From a virus, in IMG/VR virus record IMGVR_UViG_3300034023_000418, positions 1-32,510 of that record: a stretch of DNA of 32,510 nucleotides; one strand, 5' to 3'. The notes below the pieces were generated by a model. The model had not been told where the DNA came from, did no database searches, and worked only from the letters and a program-made list of their open reading frames with translations. Position numbers and translations under genes: made by a program. The first letter of the stretch is position 1, and every line of letters starts with the position of its first letter. Shown in pieces: positions 1 to 24,281 of this stretch.

Positions 1-3000
1 ACCGGAATCAGCGAGGGCTTTACCAAGGCCGTATCGCAGGCCGAGATGTCGCAGATCCTAGAGCGCCAGCGAGAACGCGGTGGCTACCTTGAGGAGTATG
101 AGAAGGCTGCGCTTCGGTCGTATCAGCAAGAGTTGTCTGAACTCTCAAAGGAGACTGGACTCGCAGAAGCCGGCGCATATCTCGTAAGTCAGCAGCTCAC
201 GGACTGGCGAATTGAGGATGTAGAAAGGGTTGTGACTGGTGGAGTGATTGGTGGTGGGGCGGGATTTGTTGGCGGGCCACTTGCCCCAGCTACTGTTCCT
301 GCTGGCATCGCGCTTGGCTTGAAGGCTGGCGCTGCGACCACCATTCTTGAACGTTCGCGCCGCATGCAAACGGCCATGCTCTACGGCGAACTTGAGCCGG
401 AGCTCGGGCATGACATGGCGAACAAGATCGCGTTCGGCGCTGGAATCCTGAATGCATCGCTCGATGTTGGTTCGCTCGGCCTCATCACGGCACCGCTGCG
501 TGCGCCGCTGAAGGCGGCGTTTGGGCAGGCGGTCAAGGAGGCGGTCAGGAAGCGGACGGTGCGCGACTCATTCGCACGGTTCGGCCTGTGGTACGCCGGC
601 TCTGTCGCGGCGGAGACAGGCACGGAAACGCTTCAGGAGATGAACAACGTTCTTGCGATGGAACTTGGCCTGTACCTTCAGGAGAAGCCGCTGGTGCTGT
701 CCACGCCAGAGGGACGCGCCGAGGTCGCTGACAGGCTTGCCGCGACGGCTGTGGAAACGGCGCTTGGCATGGTGACGGTGGGCCTGCCAGGTCCTGCGGT
801 CCAGTTCTACTCGGATGTTCGCGGCGCGGCACGGGCGATGAACGAGCACAAGAAGCTTGAGAACATCACCAAGGCCGTGTCGGAGAGCAAGCTGCTGCCA
901 CGAAACTCCGCGGCACTGGAGTCGTATATCGCGTCAACGGCGGAGGGTTCGGATGCATCGACGGTGTTCATCGACGCGGCGACCACGAACGACATCCTGC
1001 GGCAGTCCGGCCTGACGGACGTGGAGCTCGACGCCGCGCTTCCCGGCGTCCGTCAGCAAATTGAGACGCTTCAGGAGAAGGACATCCCGCTTGGCGGGTC
1101 GGACATCACGATCCCGATGGAGCAGTTCACGGTTCGGATCGCCAAAACTCCGTTGCAGGAACAGTTGAAGCAGCACGCACGCCTGTCTGCGGGCGCACCG
1201 AGCTTCCTTGAGGCGCAGCGCATCCGTGCCGAGATGGCACAGACCCGGGCGGAGGCAGAGCAGATCCTCGCCACGAAGCAGGAAGCCGACGCTGCGTTCG
1301 TCGCCGAAGCGCAGCAGGTTGAGGACGAGGCGTTTGAGCAGGTCCGTGCGGTCGGCCAGTTCACCGACATCGAGGCGCGGACGATTGCCAAGTTGCGTCA
1401 GGCGATGGTGGTCGTGGACGCCGCCGAAGCCGGGATGACGCCGGCCCAGTACCAGCGCGAGCGCGGCGTGCCGTTGCGCGTGCAAGGCGAGGTCGCGCCT
1501 GTCGCGACGTTCGAGCAGGCCGCTGCCGTTGATAAGTTTGGCGTCGCTACGCCGCAGTACCGAAGGGCTTGGCACAAGGCAACCACAGGAAGTCCAATTA
1601 CGGTAACTGCGTGGCATGCTCCTAGTGGATCAAACGCTGCGAAACTGACGGAGTTTGCTCGCGAGCGGATGGGTCGCGAAACGACCCTCGGAGGAGGATG
1701 GTACGGAGCGAGAGATAAGGATGTCGCGCAGACATATGGCGCTCCGAAGGAGTTTCAGGTCACGCTTCAGAACCCATACGTCTTCAGCGAGGCAAGCAAG
1801 TCGTTCGTTCTGAAGATTACTAACGAGGAACTACAGCGACTGCGAGATGCAGGTCACGATGGAATCATCGTGAAGGGAGTGAACGCAACGCTGCAAGGCC
1901 AAGACCGCTCGCACCTTGAAGTTATTGCGTTCAACCCGGAAGCCGCAGTTAAAGAAGTCACCGCGCCATTCGACCAAGCCGCCACGCTCGACGCCGACTA
2001 CCTCGCGGCGGTCGAGCGCGGCGACATGGCGACGGCGCAGCGCATGGTGGACGAAGCGGCAAGTGCGCAGGGATACACGGTTGAGGCTTTCCACGGAACG
2101 CCAGAGGGCGGATTCACGGAATTCAACGATTCGCCGCGTGGCTTGTTCTTCACGAGCAAGCCGTCAATCGCGCAGGGTTACACGTACTTCAGAAACCCGT
2201 GGTTGAGTCCGAGCGAAGATGCGGCAATTTACCGAACTCGACTGCGGATGCAAAATCCGCTCATCATCGATGCGGACGGTCGGAGGCACAACAACATTCC
2301 ATTCCCTGGACGCGAGTTCCGTCCGACGGTGTTCGGCAATTTGCCACAGGGAGCAGTATCCGTAGAGGAAGCTGCGCGCCTTGCGTTTGAGGCAGGACAT
2401 GACGGACTTGTCATCAATAACGTGATGGACAGCGTGCTGCCGGAAGACAGGACACGCAGCACGGTCTATGTTGTCCCGGCAAAGGAGCAGGCAAAACTCG
2501 CCGACCCCGTCACCTACGACGAGCAGGGCAACATCGTCCAGCTGTCGCGCCGCTTTGACATCACTAGCCCGAAGCTGTTCGAGCAGGCGGCTGTTGCCCC
2601 GCGTTTGATGGCCGTTCATAATCTGTCCGCTGACAATCTGCAATTTGCGGAGCGGATGGGTGGTCTTGCGGTTCCATCAATCGGAGTCATTACCGAAGAA
2701 GCCGGCGGCGTTGAGGGATTTGGTGAAATTACGCTGCTCGGTACACGCGAGATGGCCGATCCTCGTACAACTCCAGTATTTGAGGCCGACGCATATTCGG
2801 CTAGGTTCCCACGCCCTGAATGGCCGAAAGTTTCGACTGCAAAGGCAGATGCCGTTGTCGCATCCATTCGTGATCTACAAACCGAGTTTGATGACGTAGG
2901 ACTGGTTGATAGCACATTTGATTTTCTCGTCAACGAACCAGATGCCAACAAGTTAGCGGATCGGTGGTTGCGTTCGCCAGCAATCATGGCGATGTACTTG

Positions 3001-6000
3001 CGAGAGCGTGGAATTGAAATCGCTCCGATACTGGAAACACGACCAACATTGTCGCGCCTGACATGGGAGGCAATCGATCGTCTGACTCCAATTTATTTGG
3101 CAGTCGATCAACAGCAGGCATATGACGTGATGGAGGCCAGTCCTGAATACGCGGCTCTCAAGGTTGCATACGCCGATGAAGTGCGTAGGCAATATCAGGG
3201 CGTTGCAGAAGAACTACCAGAAGGACGTGTTGAAGAGTGGGCAAAGCAATTCACTCCAACGACGCTACAACGATTGAGCAGAGATGTTCGAGAAACGAAT
3301 CGCCAGCGTGTAGCAAGAGAAGCAACAGCAGATGCGATTACGGAAAAGTTGGAGCCGCTGTACGCGGAATACAAAACCTGGGTCGATCAGAAAACGCGAG
3401 GACAGTTTGGTGCGCCATTCCTTCGTGATGGAAAACTAAAGCGTCCATATACGCTTGGAAATATTGTTGAATTCATGGCGTCTGCTAACGTCAAGGGCGA
3501 AGAAAAAGGTATGACGTTTGGGGCTGGTGCAGCTCGGGCGAAGCGTGCGCGAGCGTTCCCTGATCTTGAGGAAATGCGCGAGGCAGCAAAGACAGCCATT
3601 GTCAATCTAGACGAATACAGCAAGGCACGAAAGGAATCGGAAAATACTCTTGAGGCTTACCGTCTGGCAGTTGTGGATTACACTCGGCTGACGGATTACC
3701 GTGGCAAGCAAGACACATGGGCCGCAATGGACGCGTCTATGAAGGCGCTGGCTCGGTACGGTAAGCGCAAGAAGCGAAACGCAAAGGCAATGCGCGAAGC
3801 ATTGAGCCGTGAGCAATTTGCTATTAGCAGCCTGCCAGCGGAAACTATCGAACAGGCAATTGATGCCGCTGATGCTCTGTTCAATGCTCCAGTTCCATAC
3901 TTTGAGGCCAAGCCGCAACGTGCGGTGCGACTAGATGAGTTTGCTGGAGCAGTAATTCCGACAGATGCATCACCGCAAACCCGCGACATTCTTGAGCGAA
4001 GTGGCATTCCATACATGTCGTATATCGCTGGGAATGAACAGGATCGCCAACGAGCAGTGCGTCAGATGGCGGTTTCTCCAGAGGCGCGTGGTGAGGTGCT
4101 GTTTCAGGCCATGCCGTCTCCCAGCCCGGCCCGCGGCGGATTCGACCCGCGCACCCTGAACGTCCTCGTCGGCAAGGGCGGCGACGTATCGACGCTCGCG
4201 CACGAGCTGATCCACCTCCGCGTCGCCGAGTACCTCCGCATGGCGCGTGGCACCACCCCGCCGGCGCGTGTGAACGCCGACCTCGAGACGCTGTTCGGGT
4301 TCATGGGCGTGGAGGGCGCGACGTTCCAGGAGCGTCTCGACAACTACGAGACGATGACCATCGACCAGCGCAGGCCGCTGGAGGAGAAGGTCACCTACAA
4401 CTTCGAGATTTACTTGTACGAAGGCAAGGCTCCGAGCGTGGAGCTGCGCGGCGTGTTCGATCGTCTCGCCGCGTGGATGCGCCGCGTGTACAAGTCGATC
4501 CGCGATAACCTGAACGAGATCTACCGCCGCGAGTTCGGCACCGACCTGCCGATCCTCACGCCCGAAGTGCGCTCCGTGTTCGACCGCATGCTCGCATCCG
4601 AAGAGCAGATCAAGCGGCAGGAGGCCATCGAGGGGATGAAAGGTTTGTTCCAGACGCAGGCAGAAAGCGGCATGGGAGACGCCGAGTGGGCCGCGTACCA
4701 GGCCATGCAGCAGGAGGCCACGGAGGCCGCCGTCACCGACCTGAACACCGCCAGCATGCGGCAGGTGCAGTGGCTCGGGAACGCCCGCGCACGAATCCTG
4801 CGCGACCTCCAGAAGAAGCACGACGCCAAGCGCAAGGATGTCACTGCCGAGGTGGCCGCCGCCGTCAAGGTGGAGCCCGTGTACCGGGCTATGACCTACC
4901 TGCGCTACGGTCGGTTCGTGGACACGGACGGGGCCGAGGTCGAGGTCGATGGCACGCACCGACTGGACATTGAGAAGGTCCGTGCCATGTATGCCGGCCT
5001 GCCGTCTGCCGAGGGCGTGGAGCTGATCCGCGCCACGGGTATGGCCGTGCCGGCGAACGTCCGCCCGGACATCACGCCGCTCGGGACGGGCAAGTACGGG
5101 ATGCTCGGCCGCGACGGGCTCGACCCGGACATGGTCGCCGAGATGTTCGGGTACTCGAGCGGTGACGAGATGGTCCGCGCCCTGCTCGCTGCCAAGCCCA
5201 TGAAGGATGCCGTAGCCGAGCGCACGGACGCCGAGATGCTGCGGCGGTTCGGTGATATGAACACTCCTGCGGCGCTCGAGGCCGAGGTGCAGAAGGCGCT
5301 CCACAACGAGGCCCGCGCTCGGTTCGTGGCCGTGGAGCTGCGGCACATCGCCAAGGCGACGCAGCCCGTGCGCGTCATGCTCGAGACGGCCAAGCAGGTC
5401 GCCGCCGACATGATCTCGGATACGACGATCCGCGATCTTCGCCCGGGCGAGTTCGTGGCCGCCGAGGCCCGCGCTGCCCGCGACGCCGAGCGTATCCAGC
5501 GCACCTACGGGATTACGGAGCCTGCGCCGGAACTGGCGCAGCGGTACGGCACCGACCGCCAGCAGGCGCTGATCCGCGCCAAACGGGCGCAGCTCTACCA
5601 GAACCAGCTCGCCGCCGAGGCGCTCCGCGTGAAGGAGTACGTGGACAAGCAGGTCAAGTACCTGCGCGGCGTGATGCGCGACAGCAACGTCAAGCGCATG
5701 GGAGCCGCCGCGGCCGACCAGGTTGCCGGCCTGCTCGAGCGGTTTGAGGTGGCCCCGGTCAGCCTCAAGCGTCTTGACGAGCGTCGGTCGATGGCGAAGT
5801 ACCTCGCAGACCTTGAGGATGCCGGCGTGGTGCCGGACATCGCCGAGGAGATCGCCGACGAGGCACGCCGCGTCAACTACAAGCAGCTCAAGGTCAGCGA
5901 GTTCCGCGACCTGGTGGACGCCGTCAAGCAGATCGAGCACATCGGCAAGAACGAGCAGAAGATGCGTCTGGCCGAGGAGCGTGCCGCATTTGAGGAGGTG

Positions 6001-8034
6001 CGCGACGATGTGGTTACGCGCATTCGTGCGGTCGGCAAGGTGCGCGAGCTCCAGATCGACCCTCGTACACCGCTGACCGGGATCGGGCGCACGGCGGCGT
6101 TCCTGCGCGGGTTCGCTGCCCAGCATCTGAAGGCGGCGTCCATCGTTCGCATCCTCGACGGCGGAAAGGATGACGGACCGCTCTGGAACGCCATCATCCG
6201 CACGGCAAATGAAGCGGCTGATTTTGAAACGCGACGGCGTGCTGAAGCATCGTTGAAGTTTGGTGAGATCCTGAAGCCCGTGTTCGCGCTCGGCGGCATG
6301 GGCGGCAAGGGGATGTACTTCCCGTCCATCGGGCGCAGCCTGAACCGGGAGGCCAGGATCGCCATCGCCATGAACCTCGGCAACGACGGAAACCGTCAGC
6401 GCCTGCTTGACGGCGAGGGCTGGACGCTTGAGCAGCTCCAGCCCGTACTCGAGAGCCTGACCGAGGCCGAGTGGCTAGCCGTGCAGAAGGTGTGGGACTT
6501 CATCGACGGCTACCGCCCGGAGATCGCCGCCAAGGAGCGACGCCTGTACGGCAAGGAGCCCGAGTGGGTAAAGCCCACCCCGTTCACCGTCCGCACGTCG
6601 GACGGCAAGGAGGTCGCCTTGCAGGGCGGCTACTACCCAGTCAAGTACGACCCGGTGGCATCCGACCGCGTGGCGACCGTGGACGCCGCAGAAGAAGCCA
6701 AGCGTGACCTTCAGGGCGCGTACACGGCGGCCACGACGCGGCGGTCGTTCGTCAAGGCCCGTGCGAAGGAGGTCCGCGATAGGCCGCTCCTGTACACGCT
6801 CGACGCCGCCTTCAGCGGGGTAAACGATGTGATCCACGACCTGGCGTGGCACGAGTGGCTCATCTCCACGAACCGCCTGCTGCGCGATCCCAAGTTTGCC
6901 AACGCCGTTCGCGAGACGCGTGGACCAGAGTTCCTGAAGCAACTGCGCGACTGGTCGAAGGACAACGCGACCGGGGCACGTGGCCAGCAGGTCGCCGGCG
7001 AGGCGGTCCTGTCATGGCTGCGGCAGGGGATCAGCGCGTCGGGCCTCGGATTCAACGTGGTCAGCGCGGCCATGCAGGTCACCGGGTTCAACCAGAGCAT
7101 CGTCCGCATCGGTGCCAAGTACGTCGGCCAAGGCATCGTGCAGTTCTCGACGAGCCCGTTCGAGTCGGCCAAGACGGTCGCCGAGAAAAGCTCGTTCATG
7201 GCCGAGCGCGGCCGCACGCAGTTCCGCGAAATCAACGAGATCAAGAACCGTGTACGCGGGCAGACAGAGGTGGCCCGTCGCGTGACGGCTGGCACCTACT
7301 TCCTGATGATGAACATGCAGCGGTCGGTGGATATCCCGACCTGGCTTGGCGCGTACCAGAAGGCGCTCGACGCCGGGAAGGACGATGCCAAGGCCGTGGC
7401 GCTCGCCGACCAGGCGGTGCGCGACTCGCAGGGCAGCGGCCTCGTCTCGGACCTCTCGGCGATGGAGCGTGGCGGGCCTGCCATGAAGCTGTTCACGGTG
7501 TTCTACTCCTACATGAACACCGTCTACAACATGACCGCCGTGCAGACGATGACGGCCCGCGGCAAGGGCAAGTTGGCCGCCGACTACGCCATGCTGCTGG
7601 TGGTCCCGGTCGTGCTCGGATATGCCATCAAGAGCGCCATCCAGCCCGACGCCGGCGATGACGAGCTCGACCCCGAGGCGCTCGCCCGCAAGCTTGCCGC
7701 CGAGGAGCTGTCGTACCTGATGGGGACGATGGTGATCGCCCGCGAGTTTGGCGGGGCAGCGCAGCTCCTGACGGGCGCGGAGGGCGTCCGCATGGGCTAC
7801 GGCGGCCCTGCCGGCTTGCGAGCCGTAGGCGAGGTCTACGGGCTTGCCACGCAGGCTGGGCAGCTTGAGTTCGACCGCGCCTTCCGCAGGGCGGCCATCA
7901 ACACGCTCGGTGCGTTCACCGGGCTCCCAAGCGCCCAGATCAACCGCACCATCGACGGCATTGAGGCGTTGGTGGAAGGCGAGGTCGAAGGGCCGTCCGC
8001 CGTGCTCGCGCCGCTGACTGGCGTGCAGCGTTAG
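1..8034 (+). CDS. Giant polyvalent virion protein (5' end cut by window): two ART-like domains, zincin motif, C-terminal membrane segment
   Basis: The frame is open to base 1; the first ATG is at 46 (2,662 residues from there), so the true start is probably outside the window. Counting from 46: a Gly/Ala-rich hydrophobic stretch at about 62-100; an ADP-ribosyltransferase-like domain at 520-645 (VTAWHA start, AGHDGI near the end); a second at 678-805 (AFHGT, GLFFTS, AGHDGLV); a conserved mobile-element domain at about 853-1349 (opens LMAVHN, closes near FEAKPQRAV); a zincin motif HELIH at 1386-1390; long helical regions; and a hydrophobic segment at about 2510-2530. This layout is that of the polyvalent proteins of phages and conjugative elements, which are delivered with DNA. 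Its place before the tail fibres suggests an internal or ejected virion protein. Role in ejection and in modifying host targets is inferred. Codon use changes sharply between domains. Confidence 0.85.
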   Translation, partial: TGISEGFTKAVSQAEMSQILERQRERGGYLEEYEKAALRSYQQELSELSKETGLAEAGAYLVSQQLTDWRIEDVERVVTGGVIGGGAGFVGGPLAPATVPAGIALGLKAGAATTILERSRRMQTAMLYGELEPELGHDMANKIAFGAGILNASLDVGSLGLITAPLRAPLKAAFGQAVKEAVRKRTVRDSFARFGLWYAGSVAAETGTETLQEMNNVLAMELGLYLQEKPLVLSTPEGRAEVADRLAATAVETALGMVTVGLPGPAVQFYSDVRGAARAMNEHKKLENITKAVSESKLLPRNSAALESYIASTAEGSDASTVFIDAATTNDILRQSGLTDVELDAALPGVRQQIETLQEKDIPLGGSDITIPMEQFTVRIAKTPLQEQLKQHARLSAGAPSFLEAQRIRAEMAQTRAEAEQILATKQEADAAFVAEAQQVEDEAFEQVRAVGQFTDIEARTIAKLRQAMVVVDAAEAGMTPAQYQRERGVPLRVQGEVAPVATFEQAAAVDKFGVATPQYRRAWHKATTGSPITVTAWHAPSGSNAAKLTEFARERMGRETTLGGGWYGARDKDVAQTYGAPKEFQVTLQNPYVFSEASKSFVLKITNEELQRLRDAGHDGIIVKGVNATLQGQDRSHLEVIAFNPEAAVKEVTAPFDQAATLDADYLAAVERGDMATAQRMVDEAASAQGYTVEAFHGTPEGGFTEFNDSPRGLFFTSKPSIAQGYTYFRNPWLSPSEDAAIYRTRLRMQNPLIIDADGRRHNNIPFPGREFRPTVFGNLPQGAVSVEEAARLAFEAGHDGLVINNVMDSVLPEDRTRSTVYVVPAKEQAKLADPVTYDEQGNIVQLSRRFDITSPKLFEQAAVAPRLMAVHNLSADNLQFAERMGGLAVPSIGVITEEAGGVEGFGEITLLGTREMADPRTTPVFEADAYSARFPRPEWPKVSTAKADAVVASIRDLQTEFDDVGLVDSTFDFLVNEPDANKLADRWLRSPAIMAMYLRERGIEIAPILETRPTLSRLTWEAIDRLTPIYLAVDQQQAYDVMEASPEYAALKVAYADEVRRQYQGVAEELPEGRVEEWAKQFTPTTLQRLSRDVRETNRQRVAREATADAITEKLEPLYAEYKTWVDQKTRGQFGAPFLRDGKLKRPYTLGNIVEFMASANVKGEEKGMTFGAGAARAKRARAFPDLEEMREAAKTAIVNLDEYSKARKESENTLEAYRLAVVDYTRLTDYRGKQDTWAAMDASMKALARYGKRKKRNAKAMREALSREQFAISSLPAETIEQAIDAADALFNAPVPYFEAKPQRAVRLDEFAGAVIPTDASPQTRDILERSGIPYMSYIAGNEQDRQRAVRQMAVSPEARGEVLFQAMPSPSPARGGFDPRTLNVLVGKGGDVSTLAHELIHLRVAEYLRMARGTTPPARVNADLETLFGFMGVEGATFQERLDNYETMTIDQRRPLEEKVTYNFEIYLYEGKAPSVELRGVFDRLAAWMRRVYKSIRDNLNEIYRREFGTDLPILTPEVRSVFDRMLASEEQIKRQEAIEGMKGLFQTQAESGMGDAEWAAYQAMQQEATEAAVTDLNTASMRQVQWLGNARARILRDLQKKHDAKRKDVTAEVAAAVKVEPVYRAMTYLRYGRFVDTDGAEVEVDGTHRLDIEKVRAMYAGLPSAEGVELIRATGMAVPANVRPDITPLGTGKYGMLGRDGLDPDMVAEMFGYSSGDEMVRALLAAKPMKDAVAERTDAEMLRRFGDMNTPAALEAEVQKALHNEARARFVAVELRHIAKATQPVRVMLETAKQVAADMISDTTIRDLRPGEFVAAEARAARDAERIQRTYGITEPAPELAQRYGTDRQQALIRAKRAQLYQNQLAAEALRVKEYVDKQVKYLRGVMRDSNVKRMGAAAADQVAGLLERFEVAPVSLKRLDERRSMAKYLADLEDAGVVPDIAEEIADEARRVNYKQLKVSEFRDLVDAVKQIEHIGKNEQKMRLAEERAAFEEVRDDVVTRIRAVGKVRELQIDPRTPLTGIGRTAAFLRGFAAQHLKAASIVRILDGGKDDGPLWNAIIRTANEAADFETRRRAEASLKFGEILKPVFALGGMGGKGMYFPSIGRSLNREARIAIAMNLGNDGNRQRLLDGEGWTLEQLQPVLESLTEAEWLAVQKVWDFIDGYRPEIAAKERRLYGKEPEWVKPTPFTVRTSDGKEVALQGGYYPVKYDPVASDRVATVDAAEEAKRDLQGAYTAATTRRSFVKARAKEVRDRPLLYTLDAAFSGVNDVIHDLAWHEWLISTNRLLRDPKFANAVRETRGPEFLKQLRDWSKDNATGARGQQVAGEAVLSWLRQGISASGLGFNVVSAAMQVTGFNQSIVRIGAKYVGQGIVQFSTSPFESAKTVAEKSSFMAERGRTQFREINEIKNRVRGQTEVARRVTAGTYFLMMNMQRSVDIPTWLGAYQKALDAGKDDAKAVALADQAVRDSQGSGLVSDLSAMERGGPAMKLFTVFYSYMNTVYNMTAVQTMTARGKGKLAADYAMLLVVPVVLGYAIKSAIQPDAGDDELDPEALARKLAAEELSYLMGTMVIAREFGGAAQLLTGAEGVRMGYGGPAGLRAVGEVYGLATQAGQLEFDRAFRRAAINTLGAFTGLPSAQINRTIDGIEALVEGEVEGPSAVLAPLTGVQR

Positions 8035-22704: not shown

Positions 22705-23274
22705 CTATTCCTCCCAATACACCTCCTCGCCACGACGGTACTTGGCGAGGTCGGCGTCGCGCTTGAACGACGTGAAGTGCTTGTCGAGGAATCGGCAGTA
22801 GTTGTTGGGGAAGAGCAGGTACCTGCCGCCCGTTCGCTCGATGAGGTTGAGCGGCTTGTGCTCTTGCGGGTAACGACTGAACCCGTCACTCCAGTCGATG
22901 ACGATTCCGGTATGGCGCCCGGAGAACCCGAGGTCGGCGTTGGTGCCCATCACGGACAGCCCCTCGAGGTACTCAAGGTGCAGCGCCTCGACGTGGTCGC
23001 CCATCGCGCCCCAAGGCTGGAGGTCGCTCGGCTCGCATACATCAGGAAATGGCTCCAACTCGAACGCCTTTGGGTCGTGCGCGAGCTTGTGCAACGGGAC
23101 GCCGCACCATTCCGCGCCCGTCTCGAGCAGGACGTGCGCCATCACGATCTGGCCGGGGCGGGCGTAGATCGCGTGCCAGATGCCGCGTGTCGTGCCGGCT
23201 GGCATGCTGGGGCCGAGAGCCGTGTTGCACACATGCACATACAGATGAAACGGTAGATTCGCGTGGCGAGGCAT
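22705..23274 (-). CDS. Unknown 189-residue protein on the opposite strand to its neighbours
   Basis: It begins MPRHANLPFHLYVHVCNTAL and contains IYARPGQIVMAHVLLETGAEW, CGVPLHKLAH, LEYLEGLSVMG, GIVIDWSDGFSRYPQEHKPL and YLLFPNNYCRFLDKHFTSF. Many conserved-looking Trp, His and Tyr residues suggest an enzyme or binding protein, but I recognise no family with confidence. It is the only leftward gene between 21035 and 32510, with convergent genes on its left and an AT-rich divergent promoter-like element just upstream (TATATC on its strand, nine bases before the ATG). It may be an independently expressed cargo gene. Confidence 0.75.
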   Translation of the reverse strand: MPRHANLPFHLYVHVCNTALGPSMPAGTTRGIWHAIYARPGQIVMAHVLLETGAEWCGVPLHKLAHDPKAFELEPFPDVCEPSDLQPWGAMGDHVEALHLEYLEGLSVMGTNADLGFSGRHTGIVIDWSDGFSRYPQEHKPLNLIERTGGRYLLFPNNYCRFLDKHFTSFKRDADLAKYRRGEEVYWEE

Positions 23275-23282
23275 ATGCGCGA

Positions 23283-23295
23283 TGATATACTTCGC
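23283..23295 (+). promoter_or_regulatory. Extended -10 promoter-like site
   Basis: TGATATACT (TGN-TATACT form) followed by TCGC, within the same family as the sites at 23679, 24764 and 25053. It lies back to back with a possible leftward -10 for the gene ending at 22705. No good -35 is seen. Confidence 0.4.
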
Positions 23296-23311
23296 GTGCG
23301 GAGATGCGGGA

Positions 23312-23515
23312 GTGCGGGAGTCGGAGCCCTATGACCCGCAAGGGGATCGCCAGAAGGCCGCGAGGTACGACGCGATCCAGCGCAACCTTTGGGGTAATGA
23401 CAACCTGCCGCCGAGGGACAGACCAGGCGAAGTCCGGGTGCTGTCTCACGTGACGAAACCTCGGTCGCTGGAGCAAAAGTGCTACAGATCAGCACATCTG
23501 TATGCGTTTCGGTGA
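23312..23515 (+). CDS. Possible small ORF, unknown
   Basis: 67 residues from GTG at 23312 with GGAG upstream; an ATG at 23282 would overlap the promoter-like site. The sequence (MRESEPYDPQGDRQKAARYD, then AIQRNLWGNDNLPPRDRPGE) is not clearly low quality, but no family is recognised and its stop lies inside a perfect hairpin. It might be a real gene or chance reading through a regulatory stretch. Confidence 0.35.
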   Translation: MRESEPYDPQGDRQKAARYDAIQRNLWGNDNLPPRDRPGEVRVLSHVTKPRSLEQKCYRSAHLYAFR

Positions 23516-23774
23516 ACGCATACAACATTTGGGGGCGGATGGAGCTGCGGTAAGAACAAACGCGGCCCGGGACTTGCGTCAACCAGGCCGCGCTTCCGGG
23601 GGCTAATTTGTCGGGTCGCGCCGCGCTTGGCGGCTCCAACCGCCTCGCCTCGTCAGAGAGGCACGCCCGACGAGAACATGGTATACTGCCGGCAGAGCGG
23701 GTGCAACTGCTCGAACCAATCAAGGCCGGCGGTGGGGTAGGTGCGCCGCACCCGCTCCCTGCCCCACCCCGGCC
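23485..23774 (+). other. Structured non-coding region before the replication gene
   Basis: Mostly gene-free. Visible inverted repeats in order: CAGAT/ATCTG (23485-23500); TGTATGCGTT/AACGCATACA with 6-base loop (23499-23524); CGCGGCC/GGCCGCG (23561-23592); a three-way-junction shape closed by GTCGGG (23610-23615) and CCCGAC (23666-23671) around GGCGG/CCGCC and GCCTC/GAGGC arms; then, after a promoter-like site, a long hairpin of GGCCGG plus GGTGGGG with CCCCACC plus CCGGCC (23724-23774), holding a nested GGTGC/GCACC arm. It may be a replication origin, a structured leader or a small RNA. Confidence 0.5.
23679..23691 (+). promoter_or_regulatory. Extended -10 promoter-like site before the YdaU-like gene
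   Basis: TGGTATACT followed by GCCG. The hexamer matches TATAAT in five of six bases with TGN before it. Transcription would start near 23694 and yield a leader of about 95 bases containing the hairpin at 23724-23774 before the ATG at 23790. Confidence 0.5.
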
Positions 23775-23789
23775 GTTTCGAGGCAAGAG

Positions 23790-24281
23790 ATGCCGACGCA
23801 ATTTCCTTGGTTTCCGATGTACCCGACCGACTTTCTGGTCAGTACGGCGACCATGACGCCCATGCAGGGGTGGGCATACACCCAGCTTCTGATGTACGCC
23901 TGGACGAATGGAAGCATCCCGGATGACCATCGGGCATGTGCCGCGTTGACGAGGTGCGATCTGACGGAGGCGGACTGGGCGGTGATCCGGTCGCGGTTCG
24001 CGCCGATGGCAGGGCCAATGGCCACCCTATGCAACCCACGTATGGAGCGTGAGCGCCAGCGCGTGACCGAGCGCCACCTGACTGCTGCCGAGAACGGAAA
24101 GCGCGGAGCGGAGGCCCGTTGGGGACGCGGGAATGGGGTCGCCAATGGCAACCCTAATGGCCACCCCAATGGCAAATCGATGGCTGTCACAACCACAACC
24201 ATAACCACAGAAGAATCCCCCCCTACCCCCCCTTCGAGGAAGGGGGGGAGGAGGAGAGGGAATGATTCACTCCCGTTCTAG
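23790..24281 (+). CDS. YdaU/DUF1376-like replication protein with SSB-like tip
   Basis: 163 residues. The opening FPWFPMYPTDFLVSTATMTP, then GWAYTQLLMYAWTNGSIPDD and the ARWGRG basic segment after a Glu/Arg helix (ERERQRVTERHL), is the DUF1376/YdaU pattern: a winged-helix domain found in phage replication-initiation genes. The end (residues about 120-163) is a Thr- then Pro-rich linker, SRKGG, and a tip NDSLPF that resembles the C-terminal tip of SSB. Three 7-base homopolymers lie in the linker code. It sits just after the structured region, as replication initiators often sit next to origins. GAGG precedes the ATG after the long hairpin. Confidence 0.82.
   Translation: MPTQFPWFPMYPTDFLVSTATMTPMQGWAYTQLLMYAWTNGSIPDDHRACAALTRCDLTEADWAVIRSRFAPMAGPMATLCNPRMERERQRVTERHLTAAENGKRGAEARWGRGNGVANGNPNGHPNGKSMAVTTTTITTEESPPTPPSRKGGRRRGNDSLPF
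24226..24248 (+). repeat. Perfect 10-bp GC hairpin inside the coding end of the YdaU-like gene
   Basis: CCCCCCCTTC, loop GAG, GAAGGGGGGG. Another C7 run lies at 24217-24223, and G-tracts continue to 24260. The homopolymers are candidates for polymerase slippage, and the G-tracts for a quadruplex. Confidence 0.7.

Follow-up and report, generated by a model that had tools for sequence, protein, structure and literature searches.

A pseudoknot leader and a divergent, predicted terminated RNA at the head of a phage replication operon

Plasmids and a few model phages have provided well-studied examples of structured leaders and small RNAs that control replication genes. In the IncI plasmid ColIb-P9, the repZ leader forms a pseudoknot immediately before the ribosome-binding site (RBS) of the initiator gene, and the small RNA Inc is antisense to this leader. 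OOP of phage lambda is a short, terminated leftward RNA that starts beside the replication gene O and is antisense to cII. The mRNA of gene 32, a replication gene of phages T4 and RB69, carries a leader pseudoknot at or near its 5' end, upstream of the RBS; that of T4 spans about 28 nt, precedes an unstructured stretch of UUAAA repeats longer than 40 nt, and is bound by the encoded protein (PMC535899). Phage HK022 makes a cis-acting RNA, putRNA, of about 70 nt; it lies immediately downstream of an early promoter and folds into two stem-loops (PMC9378689).

Here we report two RNA elements on opposite strands of an uncultivated phage (IMG/VR record IMGVR_UViG_3300034023_000418, positions 1-32,510; this whole stretch of 32,510 nt is referred to as the window). 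Both structure and strand are well supported. On the plus strand, the mRNA of the DUF1376 (YdaU-like) operon would start with a pseudoknot of 80 nt (23695-23774); the minus strand carries a predicted RNA of about 120 nt (~23672-23552) with a three-way junction, a CCCCCGGAA box and an intrinsic terminator. A preliminary description had listed dense hairpins in the 290 nt of 23485-23774 and had suggested an origin of replication, a structured leader or a small RNA. All shapes that it named exist, and the stretch folds with an excess of structure over dinucleotide shuffles (z = -3.9). Against the same type of control, z is -4.0 for the 10-bp stem 23499-23508/23515-23524, -2.7 for the multi-arm shape (23607-23675), -4.2 for the leader (23692-23779) and -4.8 for the last hairpin alone. 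For the stem 23561-23592, the plus strand gives no significant value (z = -1.6), since this stem forms on the minus strand (fold energy -25.6, vs. -19.7 on the plus strand). The last hairpin (23724-23774) turned out to be only half of the pseudoknot, its loop (23748-23757) being perfectly complementary to 23695-23704 upstream. Two of the other shapes, the multi-arm one and the stem that is its left-hand neighbour, are minus-strand structures. Thus, the leader and the small RNA are both supported, each for its own part of the stretch, and the two checks proposed with them, covariation and fold energy against shuffles, gave strong signals, the opposite of the outcome that had been named as telling against such structures. 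We agree that no convincing gene covers 23485-23774; a 77-aa ORF (23282-23515) overlaps only the first 31 bases. The perfect 10-bp stem at 23499-23524 is kept in close relatives only. To the left of the region lies a 189-aa gene (22705-23274, minus strand) with a weak match to a PHROG family named ferredoxin, and positions 46-8034 encode a 2662-aa polyvalent protein with ART-PolyVal (ADP-ribosyltransferase) and PBECR5 nuclease domains.

From 5' to 3', the leader consists of A, B, the 5' strand of P2, a short loop, A' and the 3' strand of P2. Strand A (GAGCGGGTGC; 23695-23704, plus strand) is the 5' side of the pseudoknot helix and forms 10/10 Watson-Crick pairs with A' (GCACCCGCTC; 23748-23757), which is located in the loop of P2. 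The 5' strand of P2 (23724-23741), with one bulged base (C23730), forms 17 pairs with its 3' strand (23758-23774), which ends 15 nt before the start codon. A' abuts the latter with 0 nt between them in every true version. Strand B (TGCTC; 23708-23712) is kept in 49/49 versions; by pairing locally with the 5' half of A in a 5-bp hairpin, it can compete with A'. Across the 49 versions, this pairing shows 99% standard pairs, 35 G-U cells and one A-C cell, and little covariation.

Helix A:A' is paired in 490/490 cells of 49 distinct versions, a value that holds partly by construction because the finder required exact A:A' complementarity; loci found via the protein are free of this bias. Positions 5-10 of the helix underwent at least 19 independent double changes without a single broken pair (parsimony on the DUF1376 tree). 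The inner 10 columns of P2 are paired at 96.7%, compared with a shuffled mean of 76% (maximum 80%), a level that none of 1000 shuffles reached, and the native P2 duplex has a mean energy of -36.0 vs. -26.6 kcal/mol when strands are swapped between species. The interleaved helices (A-C-A'-C') supported by covariation are those of an H-type pseudoknot. P1 and P2 together contain 78 G-U vs. 2 A-C cells on the plus strand, and the plus-strand RNA is therefore the functional form. As a control, we searched for an A / P2 / A' arrangement with an A:A' helix of 10 bp and a P2 of 12 bp or more. With a permissive energy cut, 30 shuffled windows contained 7 such cases by chance; the real window contained the leader (-37 kcal/mol) and one weaker minus-strand case in coding sequence. 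Since chance cases arise in shuffled windows, the arrangement alone is modest evidence; it is the covariation that decides.

The promoter-like site seen earlier between the multi-arm shape and the last hairpin is real and conserved (TGGTATACT). Its -10 element (TATACT, extended by TGG; 23682-23687, plus strand) is conserved in relatives, and nearly all versions have a sigma70-like -10 element resembling TATACT, TATGAT or TATCAT 13-42 nt before strand A. Several lineages (L100, L119, L166, L218) also have a TTGACA-like -35 element; a simple consensus promoter scan missed the rightward promoter of the window because it has no -35. Judged from the position of the -10 element, transcription would start at ~23693-23695. 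Promoter-like sites reading left overlap the rightward promoter. In the window, a possible leftward -10 element (TACCAT; 23678-23683, minus strand) overlaps the rightward one, and its candidate -35 (TTGCAC) would fall within strand A; the score of 5.9 is moderate (shuffles: mean 4.8, maximum 8.5). Leftward promoter-like sites occur in several lineages and are strong in the relatives L044 (15.0) and L095 (13.8).

The leader was present in 57/59 loci found on viral contigs by DUF1376 protein homology alone; one of the two leaderless loci starts at a contig end, and the other encodes a homologue of 27% identity. Later pattern searches enlarged the set; once the chance hits, about half of the gapped-pattern matches, had been removed by a filter for real structure, it comprised 49 distinct sequences from about a hundred contigs. 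A first-round CM (R1), built on an RNAalifold structure that cannot hold a pseudoknot, was used for copy counts only. There is one copy per locus (loci up to 12 kb), and one strong copy in the whole window. Among 47 distinct versions, most have 12-20 nt between the end of P2 and the start codon (median 15); this spacing is near-constant whichever unrelated first gene follows, a regularity that could simply reflect a short leader. In L118 (leader 3168-3234, minus strand) and L234 (leader ~5538), no start codon lies close behind the leader; none is obvious in the next several hundred bases, a structured non-coding sequence with no Rfam match.

The first gene of the operon in the window (23790-24281, plus strand) encodes a DUF1376 (YdaU-like) protein of 163 aa (PF07120, E = 1.8e-8) that also matches a PHROG primosomal protein (6e-10) and is probably a replication initiator, as predicted from these matches. 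In other phages, the leader precedes genes for DUF1376 (several deep lineages), HTH_36 (L122, L158, L218), HNH (L159, L171) or an unknown protein (L173), and a 150-aa protein without Pfam match recurs as the second gene in most loci examined. In L111, which is near the window phage on both sides, the leader and the first gene (23695-24281 of the window) have been exchanged together as a cassette. Since the first gene varies behind the same leader, the leader marks the head of the operon and is not tied to one protein. A protein search of bacterial genomes for a host gave no relative. Among 118 pattern matches on genome contigs there was one true leader, on a 3.4-kb contig in a Nocardiaceae MAG that is probably misbinned. 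The GAGC-type leader is absent in the related-portal phages Limnohabitans DC33, Bordetella BPP-1, MW202640, MW202722 and zth2-2. The record of Limnohabitans phage DC33 (PQ492659; L373) says Inoviridae, and its portal protein is 74% identical to that of the tailed phage studied here.

The predicted leftward RNA contains the three-way junction (23610-23671, minus strand), for which 16 minus-strand sequences gave a consensus fold with a closing stem GUCGGG:CCCGAC containing a bulged A, a CUC-UGAC-GAG arm and a second arm. The loop CUGACG(A/C)G and the bulged A of the closing stem are invariant, and compensatory double changes were found at 24/37 pairs of the whole RNA in the same alignment. The linker holds the almost invariant box CCCCCGGAA (23594-23602), present in 36/39 distinct versions listed; it is one base short (CCCCCGGA) in two versions and absent in the aberrant L015. 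The terminator-like hairpin (23552-23592; 39 versions) ends in a U-rich tail (UUUGUUCUU), its stem is rebuilt by compensatory changes, and many of its loops are GNRA or UUCG. The minus strand folds better in most of the 39 versions, as it does for the stem 23561-23592 and the multi-arm shape 23610-23671 in most relatives, and the wobble pairs are those of the minus strand. In part of the lineages, the junction body is missing or different, and some keep the terminator with another body. In L056, the CCCCCGGAA terminator unit is inverted (~2729, minus strand). The CUGACGAG loop bears some resemblance to a hammerhead, a reading that we reject: there was no Rfam hammerhead match, and no GAAA or cleavage element was seen.

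We consider it probable that the divergent RNA pair controls the head of the replication operon and that the leader acts on translation or mRNA fate, a function suggested by position and conservation. The target of the leader would be the initiation of translation or the 5' end of the mRNA, with antitermination as an unlikely alternative. Rightward transcription would start at ~23694, and the RNA would fold into an H-type pseudoknot immediately before the first gene's RBS. Strand A may pair locally with B first and newly transcribed A' may then displace B, with P2 closing behind, a switch between A:B and A:A' that rests on strands that hardly vary. The pseudoknot would set translation initiation, or 5'-end stability of the mRNA, for whichever gene is first, and probably senses or recruits a factor common to all these phages and not the encoded initiator. 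Sequestration of the Shine-Dalgarno sequence by the freed strand B was not consistent in several lineages compared by eye. The leftward RNA would be made from the overlapping promoter, and polymerase on one promoter should therefore exclude polymerase on the other; it may also act in trans. A fuller version, which we regard as doubtful, joins these parts into one switch that times replication: the overlapping promoters choose between leftward RNA and operon, the leftward RNA reports or modulates this choice, and the leader is a translational strand-exchange switch (A:B to A:A') that many phages carry, irrespective of their initiator.

Control of translation or mRNA fate by the leader has to be weighed against other explanations. 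Its location directly behind the promoter of a long operon (replication, terminase, structural), its size of ~80 nt with two hairpins, its indifference to the first gene and its likeness to HK022 putRNA (~70 nt, two stem-loops downstream of early promoters; PMC9378689) would suit a nascent leader that binds RNA polymerase for readthrough of terminators. However, there is one copy per locus where HK022 has putL and putR, the near-constant start-codon distance would have no role, and there are no clear intrinsic terminators downstream, which makes such antitermination unlikely. The near-continuous A'-P2 helix of ~27 bp might instead be cut by RNase III or protect the mRNA 5' end; no nucleotide separates A' from P2 in any true version, and small extra hairpins occur at the presumed 5' end in many lineages, but the strict Watson-Crick covariation of A:A' is explained no better than by other models, and we give this alternative little credence. 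Autogenous repression, in which the DUF1376 protein would repress translation of its own mRNA by binding to the pseudoknot, like gp32 of T4, would account for a 5'-terminal pseudoknot before a replication gene (PMC535899) but is very unlikely because this leader is also found in front of unrelated first genes (HTH_36, HNH, unknown).

The leftward RNA might resemble lambda OOP and, running away from the replication gene, act in trans to regulate either the leader or some transcript encoded upstream. Its place beside the initiator gene, its direction and its terminator speak for this tentative reading; the body differs from that of OOP, and a pattern search revealed neither an antisense partner nor a perfect complement of the box (UUCCGGGGG) elsewhere in the window. 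An origin or single-strand initiation site using DNA hairpins in 23485-23774, as had been suggested, would adjoin the probable initiator gene but is scarcely credible, because the G-U polarity marks each element as an RNA of one particular strand and because candidate origin features lie inside the gene instead. There, 12-bp iterons (CCAATGGCNACC; 23999-24029 and 24126-24168) are directly followed by a low-GC ACA/ACC tract (~24168-24203), as in a lambda-type in-gene origin. Iterons followed by a low-GC tract are the usual layout of origins in phage initiator genes. Repeated 8-mers exceed codon-shuffled controls in many first genes, with a low-GC tract right behind them. The same placement recurs with different repeats in many other first genes, the repeat families differing between phages. 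From this layout, the origin is more likely to lie inside the DUF1376 gene, so an intergenic one would be unnecessary.

No Rfam family (release 15) matched the window at or above its gathering threshold, and permissive searches returned only chance matches (MIR164, 19 of 64 bits; AS-pc01, 14.9 of 79; ncS01, 13.6 of 58), so neither RNA has a credible match to a catalogued family. The RNA pair may represent an undescribed control switch for phage replication, and it adds two new RNA families for annotation as well as a marker of this group of phages. Across about a hundred contigs of uncultivated phages, the leader fold outlasts extensive sequence turnover and initiator replacement, which makes the RNA module look more stable than the protein encoded behind it. 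The module is a compact, testable candidate for a switch of replication timing.

None of the systems compared (T4 gene 32, HK022 put, repZ and OOP) fits on all tested features. The leader shares with T4/RB69 gene 32 a pseudoknot near the mRNA 5' end and upstream of the RBS, but it has ~80 nt, long GC-rich helices, lies directly before the RBS and is indifferent to the encoded protein; it is not tied to the gene of a binding protein, being followed by DUF1376, HTH_36, HNH or unknown genes. It resembles HK022 putRNA in size, in its two stem-loops and in its place behind a promoter; putRNA, however, is described without a pseudoknot and with two copies per genome (PMC9378689), behind both early promoters, whereas loci up to 12 kb and the whole window each have one strong copy. 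In addition, putRNA acts on polymerase, suppressing termination by binding the beta' zinc-binding domain, and has no fixed start-codon distance. IncI/ColIb-P9 repZ likewise has a pseudoknot before the initiator RBS and a nearby opposite-strand small RNA, but it belongs to a plasmid; in the phage, the opposite-strand RNA diverges from the pseudoknot and does not overlap it. With lambda OOP, the predicted leftward RNA would share its short length, terminator, direction and position beside a replication gene. It differs in that no antisense gene was identified and that its promoter is strong only in some lineages, while its terminator and body are conserved; the body is a structured three-way junction, accompanied by the nearly invariant CCCCCGGAA box.
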